Shown here in pieces: positions 2,010 through 50,918 of a stretch of DNA of 64,000 nucleotides (position 1 is its first letter; the number at the start of each line of letters is the position of its first letter). The notes under the pieces are model-generated. The model ran no database searches. It worked only from the letters and a program-made list of their open reading frames with translations, and was not told where the DNA came from. The DNA comes from Nephrocerus scutellatus. Taxonomy: Eukaryota > Arthropoda > Insecta > Diptera > Pipunculidae. Where the stretch lies: assembly GCA_947095585.1 (NCBI GenBank), contig OX352763.1:49680481-49744480 (forward strand), in the 5' to 3' direction. Position numbers and translations under genes: made by a program.

Positions 2010-3334
2010 TGTAACGAGGTGTTTTCCCAGCCGGGGTATTCTCAGCGTGACCAGGGTTCTTTGTTCAAAGGGTCGTTACAATAAAAGATTTTTATTTAAT
2101 TTAGGAACTCAGGATTTGGTGTTTATTGTTTCCTTAAAGAAGTTATAATAAATTTATGGTTATTTCAGTGACTTAGTTCTAATTCTTAAGTTATGATTCT
2201 TTAAAATCATTTATAATGGGTTAGTGGTTATTTCAATGGCTTAATTCTAATTTTCAAGTTGTGGTTGTGTTGGCTGTGCTGTCTTCGTAGCACAGTGACA
2301 AGGGTACTTCGCTGGTTTACTATGGCAAAAAGTCTAAGTCTAGTTTTTATAGTGGTCGGATCGGGTTAAACTGCTAAAACCGTGGGAAATCATGGCTTGC
2401 TATTTTCCTATGGTTGGTCCATGGTCCCGTTATGACCGTTATTGCTATGCGAAAATTTGGTATGGCCGGTTCTCCTGGTTGTTGTTGTTTACTATATTCC
2501 TATCGTTTTTGTCATATTGTTGTTGTTGTAATCGCTGTTTGTGATTTCAGCTGTTCAATTACGTGCACAAAATTCTTTGCTGTTGTCTATAATTTCTTGT
2601 GCGTCGGCAACGGAACATCTCGTGTTGTTGTTGTTGTAATCGCTCTTTGCGATTTCAGCTGTTCAATTGCATGCACAAAATTCTTTGTTTGTGTTGTGGT
2701 TGTATTAGTTTATATAATGTTGACGAGCCCTCTTCTTTTGTTGCGAACGGTGCGTAGTTCGTTAAACTGGTCAGCTGGTTCATTGACCCAGTCAGTCCTC
2801 TTGTGTTGCTACTTTACTGCATATTTCCTCTCTCTTCCCCCTTTTCTCTAATCAACGATTATGCTTTATGCGGTGTTGGTTGATCTCTTGTTGCTCCTAT
2901 TTCCCCACTCTTCTCGTAGTGCATTTGTCCAGTTTTCATTTTGCCGCAATGGGAGTGGCTACGCGGTGTGGAGAGTTTTTCTCTATTTAATGTTGCTGCT
3001 TGGCATCTTATCAGTGATAGTCTTGCATAATTGCCTGTCTTTTGCCAGATCAGTTTGGGATTCTTATCAAGAACCACTCTCCAGATGATGATTTCAGCGA
3101 CCACTTCGACCTGTTTCGTGTACTTTGCTACCATTGAGGTGCCGTCGGCATTTCACCCTTTTGGTTGTGTGATGCTGTCGATAAAACAATTTGTATAAAG
3201 GGATATACAGACATTTTTGGTGTGACAAGTAGGGAATTCTTTCTTTATTCTCACGTATAAATATATATAAAAATTCAAAAATAAAAAGATGTACATTTGA
3301 TGTGTGGGGCAATTTTCCCTCAAAATTGTTCCTC
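2010..3334 (-). repeat. Element A LTR copy 1 (3' LTR in element sense)
   Basis: On the + strand it starts TGTAACGAGGTG and ends near TTGTTCCTC. It nearly matches copy 2. Compared with copy 3 it lacks the 61-bp tandem repeats and carries an extra segment of about 118 bp near 3014-3131. Its inner edge differs from copy 3 in the last few bases (CCTCTTG rather than CCTCACA), and I see no clean polypurine tract, so this boundary is approximate. Confidence 0.82.
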
Positions 3335-3930
3335 TTGTGGTCACGTCGGATGACGCTAGTTCTTCCAGCTCGGGTTAGCAGGATGGTGAAGAGTGTACCA
3401 GCTTCGTCGTGTGAGAACTTCAGCCGCCGCCAGTTTTTCCTTTGTACCCTGCTTCGTGCGTCCTTGACCTTCTGTCGTACTTCTGGGGACCAGTGTTCCG
3501 CACTAACTTCATTGTTGGTTGTAGTGTCGTTGCTCGTGGAGGTGGGTTCGACTCTTTCCGGGGAGATTGTCTTGCAACGTTTCGGTGGGGGTTGTTTATT
3601 CGAATCACCTGGACGTTTGACTCTGGTTGTGCAGATAAATCTTTTCCTATTGTTGTCACTCTCGCCACTGTTGTCGCTGCTGCTATCACTGCTACTGTCG
3701 CTACTACTTTCACTGCTACTGTCGCTGTTGTTGCTGCTGCTAGAACGGCTATAAGTCTGACTAGGCCTGCGGTTGTGGCAGTGGTTGTCGTTGGGGTTGC
3801 TGTTCGGCGGTGGTTTACCTCCTCTTCGTTGCCAAAGACTAATTCGGGGAATTCGGTTCCTGGTGCCGCGTGTTTTTGTAACTCCTCGGCCAGTAATCTC
3901 CTTTTGCTTGTTGCGCTTACATCCTGTCTC
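3335..3930 (-). pseudogene. Element A ORF3 C-terminal tail, basic and Ser/Asp-rich
   Basis: After the Ulp1-like frame stops at 3917, another minus-strand frame is open and reads a long tail. It has a basic stretch, an Asn/Pro/His-rich stretch, then a run of Ser-Ser-Asp and Ser-Ser-Glu repeats around 3662-3745, followed by a Lys/Arg-rich region reaching the LTR near 3335. The acidic serine run resembles casein-kinase-2-type or SUMO-interacting acidic tracts, but that is only analogy. It is probably the C-terminus of ORF3 displaced by a frameshift. The overlapping Thr/Ala-rich frames of the same DNA are reading-frame shadows of the trinucleotide-like serine repeat. Confidence 0.5.
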
Positions 3931-4661
3931 CCACCGAGTAGAGGTTCGCCACGTCCATCACTTTCTCGGCCGCCTCCAGTAGGTACACCCCGCAGTCGGT
4001 GAGGTTCGGTTGTTGCAGAGTGTTTGCCCGTACGCTGTGGTAACACCCTTGAAAATCATTCCAGGTCCCTGGATGCCCTTTCGCCCGCTGTTCCTGTATG
4101 CAGTACGTTCGTACAATCGACATCGCCTGCTTGCGTTCGCCTCCGGCCAAGGATTCATAAAGGTGGATCTCTGCTTTTTCGGGGCGTCCGGGGTGGCTGA
4201 CCACGGCCAGGTACCAGTGGTGACTTTCGCATATTGGGAGTAATGCGAGCTCGGAATTCCCCTTTTCGATCCCAGCGTCGTACCTGGTTGTGCTGCTCCA
4301 TGGCTGTCTGCTCCTCGTCCCCTTCTTGAGTGAGTTTGGCGTCCAGCATCTGTGAGATCAGGAAGGGGCTACATACCTTTATTTTGTTGCGTTGGCCCTC
4401 TTCCAATCGACTTAGGAGCCACTGCATTCCTGTCTCGATAAGTACGTCGCTTAGGTACGTATTTTCCTGTAGGAAGCGGTAGTCGCAGACTCTGACTTCG
4501 TGGCCTCCAGGTCCTGTGGGGTATTTACAGAGAATTCGTAAATCTTCAGCTTCCTTCGGTTGATTCACCAGGCGCCACGCGTTTGGTGTGCGTGTAATGA
4601 TGAGTTTCCTCTGGTAGTCATCTTTAGGTGCTTCCTGAACGGATCTATTTTTAGTTGACAT
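3917..4661 (-). pseudogene. Element A ORF3: Ulp1/C48-like cysteine protease, frameshifted
   Basis: This ORF occupies the env position, 3' of pol. The first frame (168 codons from ATG 4661) contains the N-terminal substrate-face pattern of Ulp1 proteases (VCDYRFLQENTYLSDVLI, about residues 58-75, followed by WLL). A frameshift near 4250-4300 moves the reading into the next frame, which shows LLPICESHHWYLAVV (catalytic His codon 4217-4219), LYESL where Ulp1 enzymes usually have Y-D-S-L (Glu replaces Asp, codon 4154-4156), and QQPNLTDCGVYLLEA with Gln six residues before the nucleophile Cys (codon 3992-3994). That is the His-Asp/Glu-Gln-Cys layout of C48 SUMO/NEDD8 proteases. Expected action is cleavage of a ubiquitin-like fusion or a polyprotein; the substrate is unknown. 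The second body has the same frameshift. What is sure is the motif series. Function and original frame are inferred. Confidence 0.72.
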
Positions 4662-4945
4662 CGTTTTCGAATTTTTTTCTTTGTCGGCTGATCTGTCCTG
4701 ATTAAACTAATCTTGTTGACTATTTCGTCGTTTCGTTTGGAAAGAAACCTCGGTTTCTTCATTTAACGCCGTTAATCCTGATAGCGGTTTTTATTTCCTT
4801 GCTGGAGTACTTCTTGGTGTGATCGTCTAATAGAATATTGAGAGGTTCGGCTATTCTGTTCCGTTGCTTCTTGAGTTATTTGCTGTGCTTGTAGTTGTTG
4901 TTGTATTATAATTTCGTTATTTTCTTTGTTTCGTATTTGGTAGTT

Positions 4946-5928
4946 TCAATTTCGCTGGTTTAGTGCCGACAATTTATGATTTTTGAAAACTACTTGGTTT
5001 TCCCTGCCGATGAGTTTCCCAGCTGTTGATGTTTCCTCTTGGGGGTCACTTGGAAGATTTTGGTAGAATACCTTAAGCTCGCTCACGTGAGTGGTGCGCT
5101 CTTTCGATTGTCCGTGTAACCTTAACTTTGCGATGACAGGTGAGAAGAAATCAATTACCTGATAGGGTGCGTCGTATTTTGGCGCAAGCTTGCCAGCGAA
5201 TCCTTCCAGCGCGTTGGACAGGTGGTGTTGTTTAATCAATACCAGTTGTCCCACTTCCGGCTGCCATGGACGTCGTCGTAGGTTGTAGTGTCGTGCCTGA
5301 TCTCCTGCCGCACGTTCCATGTTTCGTCTGACTATCTCAAAAACTTCTGATAGTTGCTTTGCTCTCTCATTTTGTCACTGTGCCTGTTCCCGTTGTGACC
5401 TCATCGTATAAAGCGTGTGGAAGTCGTGGTTCTCTGCCCTGAGTGAGAAATATCGGACTATATCCTGTTGAATCCTGTTTGCTTGAGTTGATAGCCAGCA
5501 TGATTTCTGGAATCTTCTCGTCCCATGTGTGCTGTTGAGTTCCTGCAAGCTGTGCAATGATTGTCTTTACGGTGCGACTTTGATGTCGTACTCCCATACT
5601 CTGTAGAAACCGTCGAAATGCCTTGCTTGTGAATTGCGCCCCATTATCGGTGATGAGAGCTTTTGGTACGCCGTAACGTGCAAGAATACGCTCTCTAAAG
5701 GCCTTCTGGACTCCGTCCGTGGTTGCTCGTCTCATCGGAATTAACTCGACCCATTTCGAGAAGCGGTCGAAGAACACCAAGAGCATGGTGTTTCCGTGCT
5801 TTGATCTTGGCAGCGGTCCCACGAAGTAAGTCAGCGCATACTATTGCCCATGGTTCCTTCGCTATCTGTGTGAGCATCTTTCCTGCAGCCTGCTGTTGGT
5901 TTGGTTTGTATCGCTGGCAACTCTCTCA
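4946..5928 (-). pseudogene. Element A integrase, broken
   Basis: The reading starts just after an in-frame TGA (5926-5928) that replaces the first Cys of the integrase HHCC zinc finger, followed by ESCQRYKPNQ. Near 5825 a small insertion shifts the frame around the first catalytic Asp (ICADFVGPLP-like). The core (ORF 5822-5367) keeps the second Asp in ALITDNGAQFTSKAF. A deletion then joins RHQSRT to VKTIIAQLAG and removes the segment with the catalytic Glu. After another frameshift near 5367, the C-terminal part (5320-4946) has the LVLIKQHHLSN and GKLAPKYDAPYQV pattern of the gypsy GPY/F region. The product cannot be catalytic. The stretch 4662-4945, between this and ORF3, shows no gene. Confidence 0.8.
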
Positions 5929-7250
5929 GTATTTCACGTACCGATTTATGTCACGAAACATTCCTGGCCAGTAATATCGTCCGCATATTCGCGCCGTGGT
6001 CTTCCGGATCCCTAGATGTCCTGCTGACGGGTTGTCGTAGTTCTCTCTGAGAACTTGCTCACGAAGCGTGCTGGGAACGCAAAGTTTCCAGGGTGCTGTG
6101 TCTTCGTCTCCGGCTTGTTGTGCTATATGGCGATACAGTTGTCCTGATTCGATCGCATAGTCGGGATACTTCTTTGGCTCCTCCGTGACTTGACTTGTTC
6201 TTTTCTCCAGCCACCTACACTTGGGCACTGGTTTGTTGTATTCCGAATTAGCCATTAGCAAATCGTGTGGTTGTCGAATGTTTTGATATGCGACTGCGTG
6301 CGGTTCCATCTCCGGACCGATGACCCGATCGAGTGCTCGTTGGAATGTAGCCGGCGAAGAGTGCAACCCAATAGGCATCACACGCCATTGAAACAGGCCG
6401 CGCCCTGGAACCGTGAAAGCGGTGTACTTCCTGCTGTGCTTTTCCATGGGTATCTGCCAATACCCGTTTCTTAGATCTAGGCTACTTATGAACTTAGCTC
6501 CTCGTAGCCGTTCCAGGATGTGCTGAATTCGTGGCAGTGGATATGCGTCAGGTATAGATCGCGTGTTAAGCTCGCGGTAGTCCACGCAAGGTCTCCATTT
6601 TCCTGTTTTCTTCCTAACGAGGACTATTGGTGCACTGTGCGGGCTGTGCGAGGGTTCGATGCAGCCTTTTGCTAATAGTTCGTCTATTTCCGTATTTATT
6701 ATTTCTTGCATTGCGGGGTTGCGAAGAAAGTATCGTTGTTTGATTGGCTGGTCATCGTGCATCACGATCTTGTTCTCCGTGATGTTTGAAACTGCTGGTA
6801 GTTCGTCAAATCGATGGAACTCATCTTTGAGAAAAGCTGAGAGCCTTTCCTGCTCCGTTGGTGTTCCTGTCTGCACCGTAATGCCTCGTAGAGTTCCACA
6901 TTGTTGTTCCACTTTCTCCTGGAGCTGGAGTGTTTGACCACCACAGCTTAATTTGGCTTTTATCTTCGCCAAGAAGTCAAGTCCTAGGACGATATCATCC
7001 ACAGCTTCCGGGAGAATTAAAAATTCGAGTTTAGTGTGTTCGGTTCCCATTTGTACATCCAATTTTATCGCCTCTTGAATCAGTCGGGACGTGCCTTCAG
7101 CCATCCTAACCATTGTGTTGACAGATATACTATTTGACACACTCCTCCTGCCCTCTGCGTACTGCTTGCTCACGAAACTCTTGGTAGCACCAGTATCGAT
7201 CGTGGCCTTGACGATTTCTTTTCCTAGAGCGATGGTGGCGTAGATTCGAG
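5926..7250 (-). pseudogene. Element A protease and reverse transcriptase, internally deleted
   Basis: The frame overlaps the end of gag in the -1 phase. It opens with an aspartic protease (TIDTGATKSFV near 7185-7215). RT follows with the fingers motif KTGKWRPCVDYRELN, SSLDLRNGYWQIP and the VMPIGLHSSPATFQRALDRVIG thumb-side motif. The reading then jumps from AVAYQN to a segment typical of the integrase N-terminal linker, so the catalytic YxDD box, the RT thumb/connection and the whole RNase H are missing. It continues through HLGIRKTTARICGRYYWPGMF of the integrase zinc finger and ends at the TGA described under integrase. The reading is one ORF of 415 codons but cannot encode an active polymerase. 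Confidence 0.82.
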
Positions 7251-7255
7251 TTGTG

Positions 7256-8404
7256 TCAAAATGTAGAAAATTTAGTGGGTTCGAGGTGCATTCCTCTGGG
7301 GCTCCGCCGCACCTCTGCTTCGTCGGTCCCCCGGTCGTTTCCCGCTTGTTTTCGACAACATTCTGTCGTTCTTGTATTCCGGCGGCCGCAGTCCCAGCAG
7401 AACAAAATTTTTGGATTTCGACAATCGCGTCTTATGTGTCCGTCCTGACCACATCGCATGCAGGCTGTTTTTACGTTTATAAGGCCGTCGATGTCGCGTG
7501 CAATCATACAATTCTTTTCTACCTGTTTTGGTCGGTTGTTGGGTCTATTTAGCACCGGAGTTCCAGTTATTCCCTCAAAATCTTCTGCTAGTTCGATAAG
7601 ATCGTTTAACTTCTCGAAGTCCTTCCGTTTAATATAATATTGGTACTCCTCGCGGCAATTTCTGGAGATTCTTTCCACCTGTTGTACCGTTGAATATCCT
7701 GCGTGTCTCATTAGATTTTGCATTGCTATTACGAAGTCCTTAAAATTTTCGTGTCCTGCCTGACGTCGTTGGCGAATTTCGTCGTCCAAATGTTCCCAAT
7801 ACCTTGTGGGCAAAAAGAACTTCAGCAAGTCTTCCTTGAACAGCCTCCAATTCTGCCATCTCTGGTTGTTGCTTCGGAACCACATCAGTCCCCAGTCACG
7901 GAGCAATTCTGGCATGGTCCTTGGCAGCAAATCTTTGTCTATAGAATAGGCGTCGGCCAGTTCCTCAAGTCTTTCGATGAACGACAGCGGGTCTTTCCCT
8001 CCATCATACCGAACCGACACCTTTCTAACCTGCTCCATCACCATCACATATGATGTGCCAGATGTTGTCAGTGTTCCTCGGATCTGTGTTGATTCTACGA
8101 ACGCCGGAGTGTTGCTTATGACTGGAACTGTTAACCCGTTCCCTGATGTCTTCAGTTTCTCGCCGTCTGTCGTGTCGTACAGATTAAGTAGTGCCGGTGG
8201 TGTGGGTGATGGGCTACGTTTTTGTTTCGTTTCCAATTCTACGAGGCGGAGTTCGTCATCAGAAGTTACGTCTCGCCCCGTGATAAAAGTTGAAAACCGC
8301 TTCCTCAGTTCGTCCACTCCACCGTTTGTGTCCAGCCTAAACTCCGACAAGTACTTCTGTAGCTCCTCTTTCGTGAGGTTGTATACCCAACCTGGCCTCA
8401 CCAT
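7256..8404 (-). CDS. Element A Gag (capsid/nucleocapsid), body 1
   Basis: An intact ORF of 382 codons starting at an ATG 43 bases downstream of the primer binding site. The N-terminus looks SAP/helix-like (LTKEELQKYLSEF), the middle is a retrotransposon capsid-type region (DLLKFFLPTRYWEHLDDEI), and the C-terminus carries CMRCGQDGHIRRDC followed by a second Cys-rich motif, CWDCGRRNTRTTECC. These are nucleocapsid zinc knuckles that bind element RNA. Gag forms the cytoplasmic particle. Pol follows in the -1 frame, consistent with ribosomal frameshifting. Gag is the only apparently intact coding unit of this element. Confidence 0.85.
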   Translation of the reverse strand: MVRPGWVYNLTKEELQKYLSEFRLDTNGGVDELRKRFSTFITGRDVTSDDELRLVELETKQKRSPSPTPPALLNLYDTTDGEKLKTSGNGLTVPVISNTPAFVESTQIRGTLTTSGTSYVMVMEQVRKVSVRYDGGKDPLSFIERLEELADAYSIDKDLLPRTMPELLRDWGLMWFRSNNQRWQNWRLFKEDLLKFFLPTRYWEHLDDEIRQRRQAGHENFKDFVIAMQNLMRHAGYSTVQQVERISRNCREEYQYYIKRKDFEKLNDLIELAEDFEGITGTPVLNRPNNRPKQVEKNCMIARDIDGLINVKTACMRCGQDGHIRRDCRNPKILFCWDCGRRNTRTTECCRKQAGNDRGTDEAEVRRSPRGMHLEPTKFSTF

Positions 8405-8446
8405 TGTGCCTTGTTCGTTCTCTTTGCTTGCTACTTGTTTTCCAGA

Positions 8447-8464
8447 GTCCCTGCTCGGGCGCCA
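8447..8464 (-). other. Element A primer binding site, lysine-tRNA type
   Basis: On the minus strand it reads TGGCGCCCGAGCAGGGAC, two bases after the LTR end (ACA). It differs at one position from the primer site TGGCGCCCGAACAGGGAC known for tRNA-Lys3-primed retroelements. Confidence 0.82.
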
Positions 8465-8466
8465 AT

Positions 8467-9791
8467 TGTAACGAGGTGTTTTCCCAGCCGGGGTATCCTC
8501 AGCGTGACCAGGGTTCTTTGTTCAAAGGGTCGTTACAATAAAAGATTTTTATTTAATTTAAAAACTCAGGATTTGGTGTTTATTGTTTCCTTAAAGAAGT
8601 TATAATAAATTTATGGTTATTTCAGTGACTTAGTTCTAATTCTTAAGTTATGATTCTTTAAAATCATTTATAATGGGTTAGTGGTTATTTCAATGGCTTA
8701 ATTCTAATTTTCAAGTTGTGGTTGTGTTGGCTGTGCTGTCTTCGTAGCACAGTGACAAGGGTACTTCGCTGGTTTACTATGGCAAAAAGTCTAAGTCTAG
8801 TTTTTATAGTGGTCGGATCGGGTTAAACTGCTAAAACCGTGGGAAATCATGGCTTGCTATTTTCCTATGGTTGGTCCATGGTCCCGTTATGACCGTTATT
8901 GCTATGCGAAAATTTGGTATGGCCGGTTCTCCTGGTTGTTGTTGTTTACTATATTCCTATCGTTTTTGTCATATTGTTGTTGTTGTAATCGCTGTTTGTG
9001 ATTTCAGCTGTTCAATTACGTGCACAAAATTCTTTGCTGTTGTCTATAATTTCTTGTGCGTCGGCAACGGAACATCTCGTGTTGTTGTTGTTGTAATCGC
9101 TCTTTGCGATTTCAGCTGTTCAATTGCATGCACAAAATTCTTTGTTTGTGTTGTGGTTGTATTAGTTTATATAATGTTGACGAGCCCTCTTCTTTTGTTG
9201 CGAACGGTGCGTAGTTCGTTAAACTGGTCAGCTGGTTCATTGACCCAGTCAGTCCTCTTGTGTTGCTACTTTACTGCATATTTCCTCTCTCTTCCCCCTT
9301 TTCTCTAATCAACGATTATGCTTTATGCGGTGTTGGTTGATCTCTTGTTGCTCCTATTTCCCCACTCTTCTCGTAGTGCATTTGTCCAGTTTTCATTTTG
9401 CCGCAATGGGAGTGGCTACGCGGTGTGGAGAGTTTTTCTCTATTTAATGTTGCTGCTTGGCATCTTATCAGTGATAGTCTTGCATAATTGCCTGTCTTTT
9501 GCCAGATCAGTTTGGGATTCTTATCAAGAACCACTCTCCAGATGATGATTTCAGCGACCACTTCGACCTGTTTCGTGTACTTTGCTACCATTGAGGTGCC
9601 GTCGGCATTTCACCCTTTTGGTTGTGTGATGCTGTCGATAAAACAATTTGTATAAAGGGATATACAGACATTTTTGGTGTGACAAGTAGGGAATTCTTTC
9701 TTTATTCTCACGTATAAATATATATAAAAATTCAAAAATAAAAAGATGTACATTTGATGTGTGGGGCAATTTTCCCTCAAAATTGTTCCTC
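8467..9791 (-). repeat. Element A LTR copy 2 (middle, shared)
   Basis: It is nearly identical to copy 1 at a 6457-bp offset, with the same missing 61-bp repeats and the same extra 118-bp segment. It differs by a few substitutions at its left end (TATCCTCAGC as in copy 3, and AATTTAAAAACTC unique to it). A single LTR shared by two bodies is the expected product of unequal LTR-LTR recombination. Confidence 0.82.
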
Positions 9792-10387
9792 TTGTGGTCA
9801 CGTCGGATGACGCTAGTTCTTCCAGCTCGGGTTAGCAGGATGGTGAAGAGTGTACCAGCTTCGTCGTGTGAGAACTTCAGCCGCCGCCAGTTTTTCCTTT
9901 GTACCCTGCTTCGTGCGTCCTTGACCTTCTGTCGTACTTCTGGGGACCAGTGTTCCGCACTAACTTCATTGTTGGTTGTAGTGTCGTTGCTCGTGGAGGT
10001 GGGTTCGACTCTTTCCGGGGAGATTGTCTTGCAACGTTTCGGTGGGGGTTGTTTATTCGAATCACCTGGACGTTTGACTCTGGTTGTGCAGATAAATCTT
10101 TTCCTATTGTTGTCACTCTCGCCACTGTTGTCGCTGCTGCTATCACTGCTACTGTCGCTACTACTTTCACTGCTACTGTCGCTGTTGTTGCTGCTGCTAG
10201 AACGGCTATAAGTCTGACTAGGCCTGCGGTTGTGGCAGTGGTTGTCGTTGGGGTTGCTGTTCGGCGGTGGTTTACCTCCTCTTCGTTGCCAAAGACTAAT
10301 TCGGGGAATTCGGTTCCTGGTGCCGCGTGTTTTTGTAACTCCTCGGCCAGTAATCTCCTTTTGCTTGTTGCGCTTACATCCTGTCTC
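9792..10387 (-). pseudogene. Element A body 2, ORF3 acidic/basic tail
   Basis: This is the second copy of the displaced C-terminal tail, with the same Ser/Asp run around 10119-10202 and the same broken junction with the Ulp1-like frame. Confidence 0.5.
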
Positions 10388-11118
10388 CCACCGAGTAGAG
10401 GTTCGCCACGTCCATCACTTTCTCGGCCGCCTCCAGTAGGTACACCCCGCAGTCGGTGAGGTTCGGTTGTTGCAGAGTGTTTGCCCGTACGCTGTGGTAA
10501 CACCCTTGAAAATCATTCCAGGTCCCTGGATGCCCTTTCGCCCGCTGTTCCTGTATGCAGTACGTTCGTACAATCGACATCGCCTGCTTGCGTTCGCCTC
10601 CGGCCAAGGATTCATAAAGGTGGATCTCTGCTTTTTCGGGGCGTCCGGGGTGGCTGACCACGGCCAGGTACCAGTGGTGACTTTCGCATATTGGGAGTAA
10701 TGCGAGCTCGGAATTCCCCTTTTCGATCCCAGCGTCGTACCTGGTTGTGCTGCTCCATGGCTGTCTGCTCCTCGTCCCCTTCTTGAGTGAGTTTGGCGTC
10801 CAGCATCTGTGAGATCAGGAAGGGGCTACATACCTTTATTTTGTTGCGTTGGCCCTCTTCCAATCGACTTAGGAGCCACTGCATTCCTGTCTCGATAAGT
10901 ACGTCGCTTAGGTACGTATTTTCCTGTAGGAAGCGGTAGTCGCAGACTCTGACTTCGTGGCCTCCAGGTCCTGTGGGGTATTTACAGAGAATTCGTAAAT
11001 CTTCAGCTTCCTTCGGTTGATTCACCAGGCGCCACGCGTTTGGTGTGCGTGTAATGATGAGTTTACTCTGGTAGTCATCTTTAGGTGCTTCCTGAACGGA
11101 TCTATTTTTAGTTGACAT
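10374..11118 (-). pseudogene. Element A body 2, Ulp1/C48-like protease ORF3
   Basis: Copy of 3917-4661. It has the same N-terminal pattern, the same frameshift, HHWYLAVV (His codon 10674-10676), LYESL, and QQPNLTDCGVYL (Cys codon 10449-10451). One visible amino-acid difference is in the first frame (YQSKL where body 1 has YQRKL). The lesion is shared, so this copy does not independently preserve the reading frame. Confidence 0.72.
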
Positions 11119-11402
11119 CGTTTTCGAATTTTTTTCTTTGTCGGCTGATCTGTCCTGATTAAACTAATCTTGTTGACTATTTCGTCGTTTCGTTTGGAAA
11201 GAAACCTCGGTTTCTTCATTTAACGCCGTTAATCCTGATAGCGGTTTTTATTTCCTTGCTGGAGTACTTCTTGGTGTGATCGTCTAATAGAATATTGAGA
11301 GGTTCGGCTATTCTGTTCCGTTGCTTCTTGAGTTATTTGCTGTGCTTGTAGTTGTTGTTGTATTATAATTTCGTTATTTTCTTTGTTTCGTATTTGGTAG
11401 TT

Positions 11403-12385
11403 TCAATTTCGCTGGTTTAGTGCCGACAATTTATGATTTTTGAAAACTACTTGGTTTTCCCTGCCGATGAGTTTCCCAGCTGTTGATGTTTCCTCTTGGG
11501 GGTCACTTGGAAGATTTTGGTAGAATACCTTAAGCTCGCTCACGTGAGTGGTGCGCTCTTTCGATTGTCCGTGTAACCTTAACTTTGCGATGACAGGTGA
11601 GAAGAAATCAATTACCTGATAGGGTGCGTCGTATTTTGGCGCAAGCTTGCCAGCGAATCCTTCCAGCGCGTTGGACAGGTGGTGTTGTTTAATCAATACC
11701 AGTTGTCCCACTTCCGGCTGCCATGGACGTCGTCGTAGGTTGTAGTGTCGTGCCTGATCTCCTGCCGCACGTTCCATGTTTCGTCTGACTATCTCAAAAA
11801 CTTCTGATAGTTGCTTTGCTCTCTCATTTTGTCACTGTGCCTGTTCCCGTTGTGACCTCATCGTATAAAGCGTGTGGAAGTCGTGGTTCTCTGCCCTGAG
11901 TGAGAAATATCGGACTATATCCTGTTGAATCCTGTTTGCTTGAGTTGATAGCCAGCATGATTTCTGGAATCTTCTCGTCCCATGTGTGCTGTTGAGTTCC
12001 TGCAAGCTGTGCAATGATTGTCTTTACGGTGCGACTTTGATGTCGTACTCCCATACTCTGTAGAAACCGTCGAAATGCCTTGCTTGTGAATTGCGCCCCA
12101 TTATCGGTGATGAGAGCTTTTGGTACGCCGTAACGTGCAAGAATACGCTCTCTAAAGGCCTTCTGGACTCCGTCCGTGGTTGCTCGTCTCATCGGAGTTA
12201 ACTCGACCCATTTCGAGAAGCGGTCGAAGAACACCAAGAGCATGGTGTTTCCGTGCTTTGATCTTGGCAGCGGTCCCACGAAGTAAGTCAGCGCATACTA
12301 TTGCCCATGGTTCCTTCGCTATCTGTGTGAGCATCTTTCCTGCAGCCTGCTGTTGGTTTGGTTTGTATCGCTGGCAACTCTCTCA
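11403..12385 (-). pseudogene. Element A body 2, integrase, broken
   Basis: It carries the same TGA at the zinc-finger Cys, the same frameshift at the first Asp, the same loss of the Glu segment and the same frameshift near 11824 as body 1. A visible difference is VELTPM in place of VELIPM. Confidence 0.8.
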
Positions 12386-13707
12386 GTATTTCACGTACCG
12401 ATTTATGTCACGAAACATTCCTGGCCAGTAATATCGTCCGCATATTCGCGCCGTGGTCTTCCGGATCCCTAGATGTCCTGCTGACGGGTTGTCGTAGTTC
12501 TCTCTGAGAACTTGCTCACGAAGCGTGCTGGGAACGCAAAGTTTCCAGGGTGCTGTGTCTTCGTCTCCGGCTTGTTGTGCTATATGGCGATACAGTTGTC
12601 CTGATTCGATCGCATAGTCGGGATACTTCTTTGGCTCCTCCGTGACTTGACTTGTTCTTTTCTCCAGCCACCTACACTTGGGCACTGGTTTGTTGTATTC
12701 CGAATTAGCCATTAGCAAATCGTGTGGTTGTCGAATGTTTTGATATGCGACTGCGTGCGGTTCCATCTCCGGACCGATGACCCGATCGAGTGCTCGTTGG
12801 AATGTAGCCGGCGCAGAGTGCAACCCAATAGGCATCACACGCCATTGAAACAGGCCGCGCCCTGGAACCGTGAAAGCGGTGTACTTCCTGCTGTGCTTTT
12901 CCATGGGTATCTGCCAATACCCGTTTCTTAGATCTAGGCTACTTATGAACTTAGCTCCTCGTAGCCGTTCCAGGATGTGCTGAATTCGTGGCAGTGGATA
13001 TGCGTCAGGTATAGATCGCGTGTTAAGCTCGCGGTAGTCCACGCAAGGTCTCCATTTTCCTGTTTTCTTCCTAACGAGGACTATTGGTGCACTGTGCGGG
13101 CTGTGCGAGGGTTCGATGCAGCCTTTTGCTAATAGTTCGTCTATTTCCGTATTTATTATTTCTTGCATTGCGGGGTTGCGAAGAAAGTATCGTTGTTTGA
13201 TTGGCTGGTCATCGTGCATCACGATCTTGTTCTCCGTGATGTTTGAAACTGCTGGTAGTTCGTCAAATCGATGGAACTCATCTTTGAGAAAAGCTGAGAG
13301 CCTTTCCTGCTCCGTTGGTGTTGCTGTCTGCACCGTAATGCCTCGTAGAGTTCCACATTGTTGTTCCACTTTCTCCTGGAGCTGGAGTGTTTGACCACCA
13401 CAGCTTAATTTGGCTTTTATCTTCGCCAAGAAGTCAAGTCCTAGGACGATATCATCCACAGCTTCCGGGAGAATTAAAAATTCGAGTTTAGTGTGTTCGG
13501 TTCCCATTTGTACATCCAATTTTATCGCCTCTTGAATCAGTCGGGACGTGCCTTCAGCCATCCTAACCATTGTGTTGACAGATATACTATTTGACACACT
13601 CCTCCTGCCCTCTGCGTACTGCTTGCTCACGAAACTCTTGGTAGCACCAGTATCGATCGTGGCCTTGACGATTTCTTTTCCTAGAGTGATGGTGGCGTAG
13701 ATTCGAG
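12383..13707 (-). pseudogene. Element A body 2, protease and reverse transcriptase, internally deleted
   Basis: This has the same 415-codon structure as body 1, with the identical deletion of YxDD and RNase H. Differences include TVQTATP for TVQTGTP, and HSAPATF, the usual family sequence, for HSSPATF. Confidence 0.82.
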
Positions 13708-13712
13708 TTGTG

Positions 13713-14861
13713 TCAAAATGTAGAAAATTTAGTGGGTTCGAGGTGCATTCCTCTGGGGCTCCGCCGCACCTCTGCTTCGTCGGTCCCCCGGTCGTTTCCC
13801 GCTTGTTTTCGACAACATTCTGTCGTTCTTGTATTCCGGCGGCCGCAGTCCCAGCAGAACAAAATTTTTGGATTTCGACAATCGCGTCTTATGTGTCCGT
13901 CCTGACCACATCGCATGCAGGCTGTTTTTACGTTTATAAGGCCGTCGATGTCGCGTGCAATCATACAATTCTTTTCTACCTGTTTTGGTCGGTTGTTGGG
14001 TCTATTTAGCACCGGAGTTCCAGTTATTCCCTCAAAATCTTCTGCTAGTTCGATAAGATCGTTTAACTTCTCGAAGTCCTTCCGTTTAATATAATATTGG
14101 TACTCCTCGCGGCAATTTCTGAAGATTCTTTCCACCTGTTGTACCGTTGAATATCCTGCGTGTCTCATTAGATTTTGCATTGCTATTACGAAGTCCTTAA
14201 AATTTTCGTGTCCTGCCTGACGTCGTTGGCGAATTTCGTCGTCCAAATGTTCCCAATACCTTGTGGGCAAAAAGAACTTCAGCAAGTCTTCCTTGAACAG
14301 CCTCCAATTCTGCCATCTCTGGTTGTTGCTTCGGAACCACATCAGTCCCCAGTCACGGAGCAATTCTGGCATGGTCCTTGGCAGCAAATCTTTGTCTATA
14401 GAATAGGCGTCGGCCAGTTCCTCAAGTCTTTCGATGAACGACAGCGGGTCTTTCCCTCCATCATACCGAACCGACACCTTTCTAACCTGCTCCATCACCA
14501 TCACATATGATGTGCCAGATGTTGTCAGTGTTCCTCGGATCTGTGTTGATTCTACGAACGCCGGAGTGTTGCTTATGACTGGAACTGTTAACCCGTTCCC
14601 TGATGTCTTCAGTTTCTCGCCGTCTGTCGTGTCGTACAGATTAAGTAGTGCCGGTGGTGTGGGTGATGGGCTACGTTTTTGTTTCGTTTCCAATTCTACG
14701 AGGCGGAGTTCGTCATCAGAAGTTACGTCTCGCCCCGTGATAAAAGTTGAAAACCGCTTCCTCAGTTCGTCCACTCCACCGTTTGTGTCCAGCCTAAACT
14801 CCGACAAGTACTTCTGTAGCTCCTCTTTCGTGAGGTTGTATACCCAACCTGGCCTCACCAT
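13713..14861 (-). CDS. Element A Gag, body 2
   Basis: A 382-codon ORF equal to the body 1 gag except for scattered substitutions (for example ERIFRNC for ERISRNC). It has the same start context, 43 bases from its primer site, and the same zinc knuckles. It is next to LTR copy 3, the 5' LTR in element sense, so it would be the first gene of any transcript from the array. Confidence 0.85.
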   Translation of the reverse strand: MVRPGWVYNLTKEELQKYLSEFRLDTNGGVDELRKRFSTFITGRDVTSDDELRLVELETKQKRSPSPTPPALLNLYDTTDGEKLKTSGNGLTVPVISNTPAFVESTQIRGTLTTSGTSYVMVMEQVRKVSVRYDGGKDPLSFIERLEELADAYSIDKDLLPRTMPELLRDWGLMWFRSNNQRWQNWRLFKEDLLKFFLPTRYWEHLDDEIRQRRQAGHENFKDFVIAMQNLMRHAGYSTVQQVERIFRNCREEYQYYIKRKDFEKLNDLIELAEDFEGITGTPVLNRPNNRPKQVEKNCMIARDIDGLINVKTACMRCGQDGHIRRDCRNPKILFCWDCGRRNTRTTECCRKQAGNDRGTDEAEVRRSPRGMHLEPTKFSTF

Positions 14862-14903
14862 TGTGCCTTGTTCGTTCTCTTTGCTTGCTACTTGTTTTCC
14901 AGA

Positions 14904-14921
14904 GTCCCTGCTCGGGCGCCA
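14904..14921 (-). other. Element A body 2 primer binding site
   Basis: The same 18 bases as in body 1 (TGGCGCCCGAGCAGGGAC on the minus strand), two bases inside the LTR edge at 14924. Confidence 0.82.
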
Positions 14922-14923
14922 AT

Positions 14924-16588
14924 TGTAACGAGGTGTTTTCCCAGCCGGGGTATCCTCAGCGTGACCAGGGTTCTTTGTTCAAAGGGTCGTTACAATAAAA
15001 GATTTTTATTTAATTTAGGAACTCAGGATTTGGTGTTTATTGTTTCCTTAAAGAAGTTATAATAAATTTATGGTTATTTCAGTGACTTAGTTCTAATTCT
15101 TAAGTTATGATTCTTTAAAATCATTTATAATGGGTTAGTGGTTATTTCAATGGCTTAATTCTAATTTTCAAGTTGTGGTTCTATTGGCTGTGCTGTCTTT
15201 GTAGCACAGTGACAAGGGTACTTCGCTTGTTTACTATGGCAGAAAGTCTAAGTCTAGTTCTGAGCAATGGCAAGGATACTACGCTTGTGCACTGTAACAG
15301 AATGTCTATGTCCAGTGTTCCTGAGCAGTGACAAAGGTACTCCGCTTGTGCACTGTGACAGAATAGTCCCAGTCCCGTCTTCTGAGCAGTGAAGAAGATG
15401 CTTCGCTCGTGCACTGTAAAAGAGTGTCTATGTCCAGTGTTCCTGAGCAGTGACAAAGGTACTCCGCTTGTGCACTGTGACAGAATAGTCCCAGTCCAGT
15501 CTTCTGAGCAGTGACGAAGATGCTTCGCTCGTGCGCTGTAACAGAGTGTCTATGTTCAGTGTTCCTGAGCAGTGACAAAGGTACTCCGCTTGTGCACTGT
15601 GACAGAAAGTCTAGGTCTAGTTCTGAGCAAATGGCAAGGATACTTCGCTTGTCGATATGCTGCTGAACTGAAGTCAAAAAGGAAGAGACCATTTGCAGAA
15701 TTTCTGCCTCCTTTTATAGTGGTCGGATCGGGTTAAACTGCTATAACCGTGGGAAATCATGGCTTGCTATTTTCCTATGGTTGGTCCATGGTCCCGTTAT
15801 GACCGTTATTGCTATGCGAAAATTTGTTATGGCCGGTTCTCCTGGTTGTTGTTGTTTACTATATTCCTATCGTTTTTGTCATGTTGTTGTTGTTGTAATC
15901 GCTGTTTGTGATTTCAGCTTTTCAATTACGTGCATAAAATTCTTTGCTGTTGTCTATAATTTTTTGTGCGTCGGCAACGGAACAACTCGTGTTGTTGTTG
16001 TTGTAATCGCTGTTTGCGATTTTAGCTGTTCAATTGCATGCACAAAATTCTTTGTTTGTGTTGTAGTTGTATTAGTTTATATAATGTTGACGAGCCCTCT
16101 TCTTTTGTTGCGAACGGTGCGTAGTTCGTTGAACTGGTCAGCTGGTTCGTTGACCCAGTCAGTCCTCTTGTGTTGCTACTGTACTGCATATTTCCTCTCT
16201 CTTCCCCCTTTTCTCTAATCAACGATTATGCTTTATGCGGTGTTGGTTGATCTCTTGTTGCTCCTATTTCCCCACTCTTCTCGTAGTGCATTTGTCCAGT
16301 TTTCATTTCGCCGCAATGGGAGTGGCTACGCGGTGTGGAGAGTTTTTCTCTATTTAATGTTGCTGCTTGGCATCTTATCAGCCATTGAGGTGCCGTCGTC
16401 ATTTCACCCTTTTGGTTGTGTGATGCTGTCGATAAAACAATTTGTATAAAGGAATATACAGACATTTTTGGTGTGACAAGTAGGGAATTCTTTCTTTATT
16501 CTCACGTATAAATATATATAAAAATTCAAAAATAAAAAGATGTACATATGATGTGTGGGGCAATTTTCCCTCAAAATTGTTCCTCACA
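14924..16588 (-). repeat. Element A LTR copy 3 (5' LTR in element sense, 1665 bp)
   Basis: On the + strand it runs TGTAACGAGG...CCTCACA and is bounded by the CTTG duplication. It holds six 61-bp tandem units (15261-15623) that copies 1 and 2 lack, and lacks their extra 118 bp. It should carry the promoter of the array, but I cannot place a TATA box or start site with confidence. Confidence 0.85.
15261..15623. repeat. 61-bp VNTR in LTR copy 3, alternating two unit types
   Basis: Units start with TGAGCA at 15261, 15322, 15383, 15444, 15505 and 15566, with a shorter partial at 15624. Odd units contain a GTCTATGTCCAGTGTTCC type, even units an ATAGTCCCAGTCCAGTCTTC type. The array is therefore a 122-bp dimeric higher-order repeat. 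The minus-strand ORFs across it are repeat shadows. Confidence 0.85.
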
Positions 16589-16592
16589 CTTG
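16589..16592. repeat. Target site duplication CTTG (right) of element A
   Basis: It follows the CTCACA end of LTR copy 3 and is continuous with the resumed BEL LTR (TGCGCATCG). Confidence 0.85.
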
Positions 16593-21117: not shown

Positions 21118-21179
21118 AAGTAAATAATAATAGCACATTTAGCTCACTGTTGAATCTAGATAATTCAAGGCTGCGGGTA

Positions 21180-23056
21180 TGTTAACGCCAACCGGAATGT
21201 TGGCACTTGTAATAAATTAAAAACACAAAGTCAATGAATTATATTTTAACTTAAACTGTATTCTTCTCTATTTTCTTCGTAGTATAGCCGTGATGTGCAA
21301 TCGGCTGTTATAGCATCTCTCGATGGTAAAGTACCTAAAAAGCAAAATACATTAATCTTGAAATGAGTATTAACAAACCACTGTATACTTATCTGTATGT
21401 TATTTGAGGCAGTGGAATCATCGGGCGATGGTCCGACAGCATATTGCCAGGCTGGTAACTATTGTAACTAGAATTAAATAACTATAATTATACAATTGTA
21501 TTTATAAATAATAATTTAATTGTCGTAGTAGTCGGTCGTTTTTCGGAATTAAATTTTTAATTTTTTTATTATTTCTTTTTAAATCATATAAATTTAAAAG
21601 AAAAGAATCAAATTTCAAATCATCATGAAATGCCTGAATTGGAGGAGGTTGCGAGGAACCGCAGAGAATCATGAAGAGCTCAATTTGAGTCAAGATTTTT
21701 CGCTCATCCTTGATGTGGTGTTTGGCGTTGGAGATTATCGGATCGATAGTTGTGCGTGCCTTTTTCTTTTGTTAGGCCTGGTACTCCAAACGAATCCGGT
21801 ACAATTAACTGTCGAGTTGTGGGTATTCAAGAAAGAAGTCAGCTAGTTCCCGAAAGGCCGAATTATTCAATAGAGGCTTTAAGAATTTTGAAGGCTCACG
21901 TTTGTCATTTTTTTTTGTAATATTTTCTTGGTCAAGGTTTTTTGTAGTTTTCCTTGACCATGATCCATTCATTAAAGCATTTGGACTCGAGTCGCTTTAG
22001 TTTCGTGAACGTTTTTTTCCGTATTGCTTTTTTCAATAAATCAGGGAGAATTTCGAGAAAATAATATTGAAACCGGCTACAAACGTGAGAAATGTGATAT
22101 ATTGTAAATCATATTTCTCCGATTTAATTCTTAATTTTAATAAAGGGCTTAGCCCACCTTATTGCCGTGGCGCAAGTCATTCAGGGAGTATTCCCTTGAC
22201 AATAAGTCATACATGAAAAAAAAAGAAGATATTATTCAATAATTATATTTACTTGCCACATAAATCCGGGCAACCATGATGTTTATATCCAAACGTCATT
22301 TGCCGTCGATAATGTAGTTCACGTTTGACAGAACTGCGCAAGGGTTTCCATCATGAATTATTGTAACGAAATTCAACCGTTGCGTTGTTCATGTCAAACG
22401 ACTGTTTTGGAATGGAAAATAACGTTATTTTTGATTGGGTGTGTGGAAGGTATTTTTTTATTAGGCTAAATTGTAATGTCATGCAAGCAAGTTGTGCTTG
22501 CAGTAAATAACTTCAATAAATATTTTATTATAATTATAATTTATATCTTCGAATTAATTAATGAGAAAAAAATTAGTAAATATTGCTCACACTATAATCA
22601 AGTTGTTGATTTGGTGTTATTATTTTTTGGTTTGGTGTGGTTCATACGTGCACCAAGTGGTTTTCTGTGCGACATTCATTCGCGAAATAGAGCGCTATCG
22701 TATCAAATACGGTTGCAACTGGGAACTCGCCATCTTGTGCGCATCGTTAAGTTCTGTTGGCTGTACACCATTCACCGGATCAGTAGCGGCAAACACGCGA
22801 TCGAAAAAAATAAGTGCGTGCACACATTACAGGCCACCCCATTATCCACTTGGGTGAATTTTACGAGCGCCTACAGGATCATCATAAAACATAGCGTCAG
22901 TATCAAATCGCAAAAACCACCACGCCATAACCTTAAACAGTAAACCACTTATCGTCGTGTCATTACTGTGAGTGTACTGAAAAGTAGTTTGCTTCGAAAG
23001 CAATTTTAGCGTCACCCATTTGGCCGCACCTGATTACCTGACTACAACAAATAATC
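21180..23056 (+). repeat. BEL 3' LTR, with a 717-bp insertion
   Basis: It starts TGTTAACGCC and matches the 5' LTR along both of its halves. It contains the uninterrupted CTTG site that proves where element A entered the 5' copy. Upstream, AAGGCTGCGGGTA may be the polypurine tract. Confidence 0.85.
21511..22227 (+). mobile_element. 717-bp insertion with A-rich tail in BEL 3' LTR, possible LINE/SINE fragment
   Basis: It is absent from the 5' LTR, where TATAAATA is followed directly by GATATTATTC. It ends in ACATGAAAAAAAAAAGAA on the + strand, which suggests retroposition of a 5'-truncated non-LTR element. No coding domain was recognised and no clear target duplication was seen. Confidence 0.45.
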
Positions 23057-44093: not shown

Positions 44094-44458
44094 GTAAGTA
44101 GATTTTAGTACCTTTTGTTTGTCCATCTCTGGAATTTGTTCATAACTGTCCTTCAACAATTACCCCTTTCCTCTATCACTCAACCCGAACTCGTTCAAAA
44201 GTACCTTTAAAATAAAAACTACTTTCTAAAAACTAAGATGACAAAATATGATACTGTTTCATACTTTAGTATCATATATACCTTGTTTTTGCACATACCT
44301 TAATTACCTTTAAAATAAAAACTACTTTATAAAACTAAGATAACAAAATATGACACTGTTTCATACTTTAGTATCATATCTACCTTATTTTTTTTGCACA
44401 TACCTTAAGTACATTTAAAATAAAACCTACTATTAAAACTAAGATAACAAAATATGAC

Positions 44459-44472
44459 ACTGATGTTTCATA
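44459..44472. repeat. LINE target site duplication, left
   Basis: ACTGATGTTTCATA recurs exactly at 49409-49422. It lies in a VNTR unit of the LTR whose usual sequence is ACTGTTTCATA, so this unit was a variant or was altered at insertion. Confidence 0.75.
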
Positions 44473-47665: not shown

Positions 47666-49185
47666 AATTCACAAATAAGTCGACCCAAAACGGTTGTTTT
47701 GGACCTGTCATCAAGACTGCTATAATTAGCAGGCACGACTTCTCTTGCCTTCTGTAAAATTGTAAAGAGGTCAGCTCCAAATAGCCTTTCCGTATCGTCG
47801 AAGATGTTGGCTTTTCCGGTAGATGGTACAGGTTTAACGGCTGGCTTTTTTATTGGTTTGCTGTTTGATGCTGCATGGCTGCTTGTTAGAGGCTTGCTGA
47901 TCGTTGCTGGCTTGCTGGAAGTCCCCATAGCAGCTATACTAGCAAAACTTACTCCCTTTACTATGGCTTTTGAAGCAGACATCTGGGCGAATTTATGTTG
48001 TTCCTTCTTCTTTTGTGCGGTTTTAAGCTTTTCAGCCATCTTTTCCTTATATTTTGGACATCCTTTATAGTTTGCCGGATGTCCATTTTTCTGGCAGTTT
48101 GTGCAGAAAACGTTGTCGTCTTTTATATTGTCTGCATTTCTTGGGCATTGGCCAGGCAAGTGCTCATCTTTGCACTTGACGCATCTGTATTTCATCCCGC
48201 AATTACTTGCGACATGTCCAAATTTTTGGCAGTTTCTGCATTGAGTAATGCCCGCCGATTTTAGTTTTTCCCAATGCACCAACTGGTTCAAAAGGAGGGT
48301 TTTTGAGCAAACTGCCGCCTTATCGCAGTTCTTCTCTAGCTCGACAATGAAATGATTAAATTTCTTGTCAGTCCTTTGAGATTTGAAGGGTTTCACCACT
48401 AGTACAGGGACACCCTCTGTCGTCAACGCTTCCTTGACATCTTCAGCATCAAAGGAGTGGTGAATACCTTTTAGGACCAACATTTCTTTCCTGTCCTCCT
48501 TTGCAGTATAAGTGTTAAATTCAGTCTTTCCCGACTGTAGGAAAGACCGAATTAGCTGATGGCCATCTCTGTTCATAGCCGTAACGACTGATTTGTTGCT
48601 GTTGATGTTGCGAATTCTGCAACTGATGTTGGCGCTCTTCGTGAACTTTGATAGTTCAGCGACGTTTAGTCTGAAGCAGACTATTGGCGGCATGGCAAAA
48701 GGTTTTGCTGTTGGTCCCGTAGTTTGGGATTTTTGGCTTGATGGAGCGACTGGTGGTGGTGCCTTCTTATTTGAGACCTTTTGGGACTCTTTTGGTAAAG
48801 CTGTTTTATCAACAGCAATTTTTTTATCAACAGCAGCCACTCCAGGAGAAGATGATGTTGGTGGCGATGATGGTCTGGAATTTCCAGACAACCTCCTTTT
48901 TTTTGCCTTTGCGGGCAAGGTTTCGGGAGAAGACCAAGCTTTGCGAATGTCTTTGTCGCTGGAGTTATCCTCTCCACCACTGCTGGATTCGGGCACTTCA
49001 GTATCCGATTCCTCGACAACGCTCATGGTTTCCTCCTCTGAAGTCGCTGAATCGCACAGCTGGTTCACTTCATCCAGCCTTCGGTACAACGACAAGAGGA
49101 AATCCCCACCATGGTTGGTTACTTGCTCCTTAATTAAGGATAAGACCTCGTTTACTTTTTCCTTCCTTTTTGCTTTTTTCCCCAT
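47653..49185 (-). CDS. LINE ORF1: Gag-like RNA-binding protein with three zinc knuckles
   Basis: 510 codons, intact. The N-terminus is basic, followed by an acidic/Ser-rich region (50-80) and a Pro/Lys/Ser-rich linker. At about 165-300 is an RRM-like fold followed by a PRE_C2HC-type segment (VVKPFKSQRTDKKFNHFIVE). Three CCHC knuckles follow: C316-C319-H324-C329, C335-C338-H342-C347 and C361-C364-H369-C376. This is the jockey-type ORF1 nucleic-acid chaperone that coats LINE RNA. It ends RLICELCSQ, overlapping the ORF2 start. The ATG at 49185 is the first one downstream of the 5' end. Confidence 0.88.
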   Translation of the reverse strand: MGKKAKRKEKVNEVLSLIKEQVTNHGGDFLLSLYRRLDEVNQLCDSATSEEETMSVVEESDTEVPESSSGGEDNSSDKDIRKAWSSPETLPAKAKKRRLSGNSRPSSPPTSSSPGVAAVDKKIAVDKTALPKESQKVSNKKAPPPVAPSSQKSQTTGPTAKPFAMPPIVCFRLNVAELSKFTKSANISCRIRNINSNKSVVTAMNRDGHQLIRSFLQSGKTEFNTYTAKEDRKEMLVLKGIHHSFDAEDVKEALTTEGVPVLVVKPFKSQRTDKKFNHFIVELEKNCDKAAVCSKTLLLNQLVHWEKLKSAGITQCRNCQKFGHVASNCGMKYRCVKCKDEHLPGQCPRNADNIKDDNVFCTNCQKNGHPANYKGCPKYKEKMAEKLKTAQKKKEQHKFAQMSASKAIVKGVSFASIAAMGTSSKPATISKPLTSSHAASNSKPIKKPAVKPVPSTGKANIFDDTERLFGADLFTILQKAREVVPANYSSLDDRSKTTVLGRLICELCSQ

Positions 49186-49408
49186 TTTATAGGGCTGATT
49201 AAAAGGAAAACCTTTTCTGAAAATAAATTCTAAAGAAAAATATTCCTGAAATTAAAAAATAATTTGTGAAATAATAAAAAATAAAAAAGTAGCAGGTAGC
49301 GAAATGCTCGCTTTTGGTTTTGGGTTTTTTTTAATCGGTAGCAGGTAGCTGGACGATATTATGCGTGATCTGCGTGTGCTCGTGTTGAGCGCTCGATGAT
49401 GACTGATG

Positions 49409-49422
49409 ACTGATGTTTCATA
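49409..49422. repeat. LINE target site duplication, right
   Basis: ACTGATGTTTCATA, immediately upstream of the LINE 5' end on the minus strand. A further copy at 50919-50932 was made by the 1510-bp duplication. Confidence 0.75.
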
Positions 49423-50470
49423 CTTTAGTATCAGATATACCTTTTTTTGCACATACCCTTATTACCTTTAAAATAAAAACTACTTTATAAAACTAAGATA
49501 ACAAAATATGACACTGTTTCATACTTTAGTATCAGATATACCTTTTTTTGCACATACCTTAATTACCTTTAAAATAAAAACTACTTTATAAAACTAAGAT
49601 AACAAAATATGACACTGTTTCATACTTTAGTATCAGAAATACCTTTTTTTGCAAATACCTTAATTACCTTTAAAATAAAAACTACTTTATAAAACTAAGA
49701 TAACAAAATATGACACTGTTTCATACTTTAGTATTATATCTACCTTATTTTTTTGCACATACCTTAAGTACATTTAAAATAAAACCTACTATTAAAACTA
49801 AGATAACAAAATATGACACTCTTTCATTCTTTAGTATCAGATATACCTTTTTTTGCACATACCTTAATTACCTTTAAAATAAAAACTACTTTATAAAACT
49901 AAGATAACAAAATATGACACTGTTTCATACTTTAGTATCAAATCTACCTTATTTTTTTTGCACATACCTTAAGTACATTTAAAATAAAACCTACTATTAA
50001 AACTAAGATAACAAAATATGACACTGTTTCATACTTTAGTATCATATCTACCTTATTTTTTTTGCACATACCTTAAGTACATTTAAAATAAAACCTACTA
50101 TTAAAACTAAGATAACAAAATATGACACTGTTTCATACTTTAGTATTATATCTACCTTATTTTTTTGCACATACCTTAAGTACATTTAAAACAAAACCTA
50201 CTATTAAAACTAAGATAACAAAATATGACACTCTTTCATACTTTAGTATCAGATATACCTTTTTTTGCACATACCTTAATTACCTTTAAAATAAAAACTA
50301 CTTTATAAAACTAAGATAACAAAATATGACACTGTTTCATACTTTAGTATCATATCTACCTTATTTTTTTTGCACATACCTTAAGTACATTTCAAATAAA
50401 ACCTACTATTAAAACTAAGATAACAAAATATGACACTGTTCTATACTTTAGTATCATACCTACTTTTTTT
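49423..50470. repeat. ~105-bp VNTR of element B LTR, block 1
   Basis: About ten units of ATACCTTTTTTTGCACATAC, then CTTAATTACCTTTAAAATAA, AACTACTTTATAAAACTAAG and ATAACAAAATATGACACTG. Two unit types alternate irregularly (TTTATAAAACT versus ACTATTAAAACT). Two further units lie left of the LINE (44255-44460). Confidence 0.82.
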
Positions 50471-50561
50471 TGTGCATATCAGAAATGCGATTAAAGCTAA
50501 AACATGCCTTAAATATATAAATAAAAAATACCCAAAAAATTGTTACTACTTTAATATTTTT

Positions 50562-50918
50562 ACACACAGCTGGTTCACTTCATCCAGCCTTCGGTACAAC
50601 GACAAGAGGAAATCCCCACCATGGTTGGTTACTTGCTCCTTAATTAAGGATAAGACCTCGTTTACTTTTTCCTTCCTTTTTGCTTTTTTCCCCATTTTAT
50701 AGGGCTGATTAAAAGGAAAACCTTTTCTGAAAATAAATTCTAAAGAAAAATATTCCTGAAATTAAAAAATAATTTGTGAAATAATAAAAAATAAAAAAGT
50801 AGCAGGTAGCGAAATGCTCGCTTTTGGTTTTGGGTTTTTTTTAATCGGTAGCAGGTAGCTGGACGATATTATGCGTGATCTGCGTGTGCTCGTGTTGAGC
50901 GCTCGATGATGACTGATG
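50562..50918 (-). pseudogene. Duplicated LINE 5' UTR and first 44 codons of ORF1
   Basis: It contains ATG 50695 and the first codons of ORF1, up to NQLC, where the duplication ends (50565). It includes the complete 223-base 5' UTR of the LINE (50696-50918). It lies upstream of the intact LINE in the same orientation. If the LINE promoter is in its 5' UTR, as in jockey elements, this is a second promoter. Confidence 0.75.

Follow-up and report, generated by a model that had tools for sequence, protein, structure and literature searches.

Why would a gypsy retrotransposon carry a SUMO-protease-like gene instead of an envelope gene (env)? The question is raised by a stretch of 64,000 nucleotides (nt) of the pipunculid fly Nephrocerus scutellatus (contig OX352763.1, positions 49,680,481 to 49,744,480), called the window here in its whole length, and by the third open reading frame (ORF3) of a gypsy insertion within it. 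A sequence-only reading of the window had proposed a Ulp1/C48-family protease gene in the env position, and this was borne out, with Peptidase_C48 (PF02902) matching one frame of ORF3 (frame b below) at 43.8 bits against a cut-off of 20.7 (E = 3.5e-11), between integrase and the 3' long terminal repeat (LTR). The window copy is a decayed member of a gypsy clade with a SENP-type C48 protease as its third ORF, in the interval between integrase and 3' LTR. The parts of ORF3 in the window are as follows.

4155..4706, minus strand: ORF3 frame a, N-terminal half of C48, SENP7-like (PDB match; relatives)
3917..4357, minus strand: ORF3 frame b, catalytic half of C48, with His, Glu replacing Asp, Gln and Cys (Pfam and PDB alignments)
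3340..3957, minus strand: downstream part of ORF3, Ser-rich linker and C-terminal module, in several frames (relatives)
10374..11163, minus strand: second tandem copy of C48 frames a and b

Of the two frames for which a PF02902 search had been proposed, only frame b was recognized by Pfam; frame a gave no Pfam C48 match at E ≤ 10 and was placed instead by the PDB, where its top match was SENP7 (chain residues 7–115, E = 0.0057). Frame b aligns to SENP7 residues 116–147 and 258–275. Because the two frames match adjacent parts of SENP7 in separate searches, they are complementary halves of one C48 domain. NCBIfam gave no relevant match, and no C48 was found elsewhere in the window outside the insertion's copies. 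In alignments with SENP1 and SENP5, the His (HHW), the acidic residue, the Gln at −6 and the Cys of TDCG in frame b share columns that we take to be catalytic, so that the His of CESHHWYLAVV and the Gln six residues before the Cys lie where the sequence-only reading had put them. The acidic position (LYESL) had also been assigned to the right column, but its Glu is not the residue of the family: it is private to the two tandem units of the window, and all 40 relatives described below have Asp. The gene itself is longer than the proposed 3917–4661, since the same frame in relatives also encodes a linker rich in Ser and a C-terminal module, which in the window reach to about 3340. The window ORF3 has its C48 over separate frames, followed by more frame changes down to that point.

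Relatives were sought in the 613-Mb assembly (9 contigs) of the same genome. A search with the catalytic half gave 525 candidates, of which the best 150 were scored, at 39 to 100% identity; two are the window's own units, and 125 of the 150 have no stop within the match. Forty loci were chosen by hand from the 150, 20 across identity classes and 20 from the upper remaining rows. In 39 of the 40, the clade's integrase immediately precedes C48 in the sense orientation, its position ranging from 1166 nt ahead of the C48 start to 2 nt beyond it, and antisense integrase matches numbered 0, a strand count that serves as an internal control for the adjacency. The order integrase, then C48, recurred in five of six further, more divergent C48 groups, with 57–64% integrase identity. 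The undamaged relatives, in which ORF3 is a single open frame under purifying selection, thus came from the same genome and not from related species, where they had been expected.

The ORF3 of these relatives spans 457–518 amino acids (aa) stop to stop in 11 loci. It comprises a complete C48 domain, a basic linker rich in Ser and, at the C-terminus, a conserved module of about 50 aa. Unlike the window copy, relatives have the complete domain in one frame (in L021, for example, profile positions 2–212 of 217). PF02902 was found in all eight ORF3 frames submitted to Pfam (E from 3e-15 to 3e-21), which gave nothing besides C48 above cut-off, the linker and C-terminal module remaining without a match. 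The module (L022 and others; window about 3340–3500) ends in REV or similar. Numbered by the first row of the alignment, His163, Asp184, Gln232 and Cys238 do not vary across 12 aligned ORF3s. His is kept in 40/40 of the chosen loci, and Gln in 37/37 and Cys in 36/37 of the frames that reach them. Close relatives L016, L019, L037 and L038 have substitutions adjoining catalytic residues. A profile of the 12 ORF3s matched SENP7 best (4.8e-27, 97.9 bits), followed by SENP1 (3.7e-14, 55.4 bits) and yeast Ulp1 (7.6e-6). The C48 family assignment stands, with SENP7 rather than Ulp1 or SENP1 as the nearest solved relative. An errantivirus-type envelope with a membrane span was not found: ORF3 is a C48 protein, and its peak 19-residue hydropathy (0.37–1.35 in the 12 ORF3s) lies under the usual membrane-span level.

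ORF3 is a gene separate from pol in ten loci, its first Met lying 67–321 nt past the integrase stop; in others C48 is inside the pol frame. In six other unfused loci, several with broken frames, the first Met lies 375–929 nt past the integrase stop. L026 (484–5715) and L027 (475–5799, reversed strand) have the match from reverse transcriptase (RT) to integrase and C48 in one frame of 1743 and 1774 aa, respectively, and C48 would therefore be made within the Pol polyprotein; L030 and L020 have integrase and C48 in a common frame. At its other end, ORF3 terminates in (G/A)TG-stop at TGTGA, TGTAA or TGTAG in 14 of 15 loci, which resembles the start of LTR C of the window, so that the stop codon probably falls within the first bases of the LTR; L031 ends elsewhere than this common junction. 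ORFs of at least 80 aa occur downstream of ORF3 in 14 of the 15 loci.

Selection on ORF3 was estimated as the ratio of nonsynonymous to synonymous divergence (dN/dS) in the 25 of 40 loci with frames of at least 380 aa, long fused frames being cut to their last 560 aa. Pairs with dS of 0.05–1.2 were used; 261 of 300 fall outside this range, and pairs are non-independent. All 39 usable pairs had a C48 dN/dS below 1 (0.087–0.623, median 0.178), including comparisons between subfamilies (0.101 for L022/L024 and 0.087 for L034/L035). The C-terminal module is likewise under purifying selection (median 0.148, 33 pairs, some of the tail comparisons, with L017, L018, L020 and L053, being misaligned at dN of 0.6–1.3). 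Since the integrase median was 0.089 (19 pairs), constraint on C48 is evident but somewhat weaker than on integrase. C48 and integrase have been inherited together for long: their distances correlate (Mantel r = 0.851, 0 of 5000 permutations) across the 19 of 48 loci in which both domains are unbroken and long enough, and across nine cluster representatives (r = 0.888, 1 of 5000 permutations), with largest distances in the set of 0.76 for C48 and 0.41 for integrase. The simplest reading of this correlation is one old acquisition of C48, followed by inheritance alongside pol.

A PF02902 profile search of the genome gave 487 candidates, the best 150 of which all exceed the cut-off. Twenty-four of these 150 share an identical stop-free open frame of 475 aa, which suggests recent amplification. 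The top match (L056, 1 kb examined) looks like a host SENP1-type gene, as named by eye. A PF02902 cluster at G000:C2:56345592-56464724 has open frames of exceptional length (1482, 1417 and 1267 aa); at L062, in this cluster, integrase lies upstream and the long frame runs past the examined stretch, downstream of C48. Outside this genome, no homologues were found in viral contigs, nor any homologues of the window pieces among 5.8 billion proteins, where candidates were limited to 0.55–1.75 times the query length (at most about 255 and 320 aa, against some 460–520 aa for open ORF3s), which gave that search little power. Gypsy-like sequence occurs in seven contigs of bacterial or archaeal records; one of them, L001 (JAHXHI010000345.1), assigned in its record to a marine worm's bacterial symbiont, carries a gypsy-like gag-pol, probably host DNA in the bin. 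A protein search with a pol piece gave 958 matches, with Bactrocera, Rhagoletis, Eurosta, Glossina, Drosophila, ants and beetles among the sources listed, which by themselves would suggest an insect host, probably a fly. PF02902 was in none of the best 120 of the 958, which is little informative, as those proteins stop before ORF3.

The element that carries ORF3 in the window has the following further parts.

2010..16588, minus strand: whole insertion, LTR-internal-LTR-internal-LTR (self-comparison and empty-site copy)
2010..3334, minus strand: LTR A (3' LTR), without its first bases and without the expected purine tract before the LTR
8467..9791, minus strand: LTR B, common to both tandem units
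14924..16588, minus strand: LTR C (5' LTR); compared with LTR A and LTR B it has an additional tandem-repeat block and lacks a stretch
8447..8464, minus strand: primer-binding site TGGCGCCCGAGCAGGGAC, 18 nt, behind the LTR (read from the sequence)
7256..8521, minus strand: gag frame, Retrotrans_gag, with zinc knuckle and SAP only under cut-offs (Pfam)
5926..7431, minus strand: pol frame with aspartic protease, truncated RT and integrase H2C2 (Pfam)
5367..5840, minus strand: pol frame with integrase core, rve (Pfam)
4946..5374, minus strand: pol frame with integrase C-terminus, SH3_Tf2-1 (Pfam)

The ends of the insertion are clear because a paralogous stretch of the window (22227–23056) runs across the insertion site without the element, as seen in the self-comparison. 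A target-site duplication, CTTG, stands on both sides (2006–2009 and 16589–16592), and on the plus strand the insertion starts with TG and terminates with CA. Window 21177–23056 as a whole is a paralog of both insertion flanks with the element absent, an empty-site record in the same window. Nine positions distinguish the two tandem units of 6457 bp each, against 23 differences in 1210 aligned bases between the outer LTRs; the insertion therefore looks older than its tandem duplication. LTR C carries, at 15260–15711, a tandem-repeat block with a period of about 120 bp that is absent in LTR A and LTR B, although the target-site duplication indicates one insertion. Tandem arrays with units of about 100 bp are common to window 49055–52706, 60043–61425 and 44199–44462.

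Assignment to Ty3/gypsy follows from the LTRs, primer site, gag and the order protease-RT-RNase H-integrase, RNase H being deleted in the window copy. There, pol is broken over several frames and lacks RT after motif B, including RNase H, in both tandem units alike; RNase H is probably present in relatives, whose matches to P0005 are uninterrupted. We presume that the primer-binding site is of the tRNA-Lys type and, from this together with the LTR length and the 4-bp target-site duplication, a resemblance to the Osvaldo/Ulysses group. The window has three further gypsy-like integrase sites, near 29, 58 and 63.5 kb, all of them from other lineages (26–49% identity).

What, then, might the protease do? 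On balance we lean towards ORF3 replacing the envelope gene in this gypsy clade with a putative active nuclear deSUMOylase that favours the element. The enzyme would strip SUMO, or a SUMO-like tag, from proteins; the basic, Ser/Arg-rich linker and lack of a clear membrane segment point to action in the nucleus, where removal of SUMO from silencing or chromatin factors may favour transcription or integration of the element. The likeliest target, at a guess, would be the SUMO-dependent step of Piwi/SFiNX silencing. The SUMO pathway is described in PMC8733420 as required for Panoramix-mediated silencing and transposable element repression in the fly ovary, a Panoramix-silenced reporter having been restored when Aos1, Uba2 or Su(var)2-10 was depleted; an element-encoded SENP could therefore oppose such silencing. 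More tentatively, and with more doubt than trust on our part, a large gypsy clade may encode an ancient deSUMOylase instead of an envelope and use it as counter-defence against SUMO-dependent silencing through Piwi-interacting RNAs or heterochromatin, with the enzyme sometimes fused to Pol and possibly packaged in the particle.

Several observations weigh against the deSUMOylase reading or the survey behind it. The window copy is damaged, with Glu where the relatives have Asp, and the predicted structure of frame b alone is poor (predicted local distance difference test score, pLDDT, 57.9), with no Foldseek match at E ≤ 0.001 and SENP1 only seventh (E = 0.58) on that poor model. The choice of loci was non-random. 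Among them, L043 has lost the catalytic Cys and L044 has no integrase within about 2.6 kb upstream, and L063, from the more divergent groups, has a nearby integrase in antisense only. Ubiquitin or some other tag could also be the substrate, as could proteins of the element itself.

The last of these leads to an alternative that we consider unlikely, namely that C48 serves the element as a second maturation protease, with its Gag-Pol or ORF3 as the substrate. Some DNA viruses have related proteases that process viral proteins, and the open frames shared with pol (L026, L027) or with integrase (L030, L020) would suit such a role, as would a GG pair near the end of the aspartic protease that is kept in seven of seven pol frames, and another in five of seven. 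However, pol already encodes an aspartic protease, ORF3 is a separate ORF in ten loci, and the top profile match, SENP7, is a SUMO protease; no such conservation of GG pairs is seen further on, at the borders of RT, RNase H and integrase, though this is a weak test. We give equally little credence to the idea that the enzyme targets not silencing factors but tags carried by the element's Gag or integrase, or else repair factors during integration. The constant linkage to integrase favours such a role, as does the pol fusion in two loci, which would put C48 in the particle, while the Ser-rich linker and C-terminal module are without a known partner; a repair role has been proposed for the Ulp1/OTU domains of Ginger, according to PMC2836005. 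That a piece of a host SENP, or a gene from some other transposon, landed by chance in one copy can be dismissed almost entirely, for although the window copy is broken and such an ORF is undescribed in the literature searched, the position is fixed in 39 of 40 loci, between-subfamily dN/dS is about 0.1, divergence is correlated with that of integrase, and a search of window 3300–5000 gave no inverted repeats, which also speaks against a nested transposon carrying C48.

The deSUMOylase encoded by ORF3, as we read it, can be set beside several known systems. With SENP/Ulp proteases, and SENP7 especially, ORF3 has in common the C48 domain, its catalytic His, Asp and Cys and its oxyanion Gln, and with SENP7 also an FLNDV-type motif and the HWYL context; unlike them, it is encoded by a retrotransposon and has two further parts, the linker rich in Ser and the C-terminal module. 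By profile score ORF3 may belong to the SENP6/7 (Ulp2) branch, but it lacks the long SENP7 insertion that separates the acidic residue from Cys, its spacing being compact in the alignment of frame b to SENP1 and SENP5. Ulp1 domains do occur in DNA transposons, as the sequence-only reading had noted: PMC2836005 describes them in Ginger1, beside a gypsy-type integrase, and in Mutator. These are, however, cut-and-paste elements with terminal inverted repeats and Ulp1 C-terminal in the transposase, without gag, RT or LTRs; the gag, RT and LTRs of the present element rule out its being Ginger1. NeSL/Utopia elements (PMC4640811, in part) are also retrotransposons with an Ulp1-like protease, but are non-LTR nematode families with the domain N-terminal in the RT protein. 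Oomycete CryptonF and CryptonS (PMC3212892, in part) are mobile and carry a C48 peptidase, CryptonS on an additional protein, but are tyrosine-recombinase DNA transposons. Bdelloid LTR retrotransposons likewise have a non-envelope enzyme as ORF3 in the env position, although theirs is a GDSL esterase or DEDDy exonuclease, and the words Ulp1 and SUMO are absent from the text available from PMC5408684; the available portions of PMC6338049 and PMC5408442 hold nothing on C48. In the full-text literature, whose coverage leaves out Repbase reports and most subscription journals, we recognized no description of a C48 ORF in gypsy. Ulp1-bearing mobile elements and enzymatic ORFs in the env position are both already known.

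If the reading of ORF3 as a deSUMOylase is true, a clade-wide, selected SENP-type protease of gypsy would tie retrotransposons directly to the host SUMO system, and one enzyme would be enough to test whether retrotransposons encode a defence of their own against SUMO-dependent silencing.
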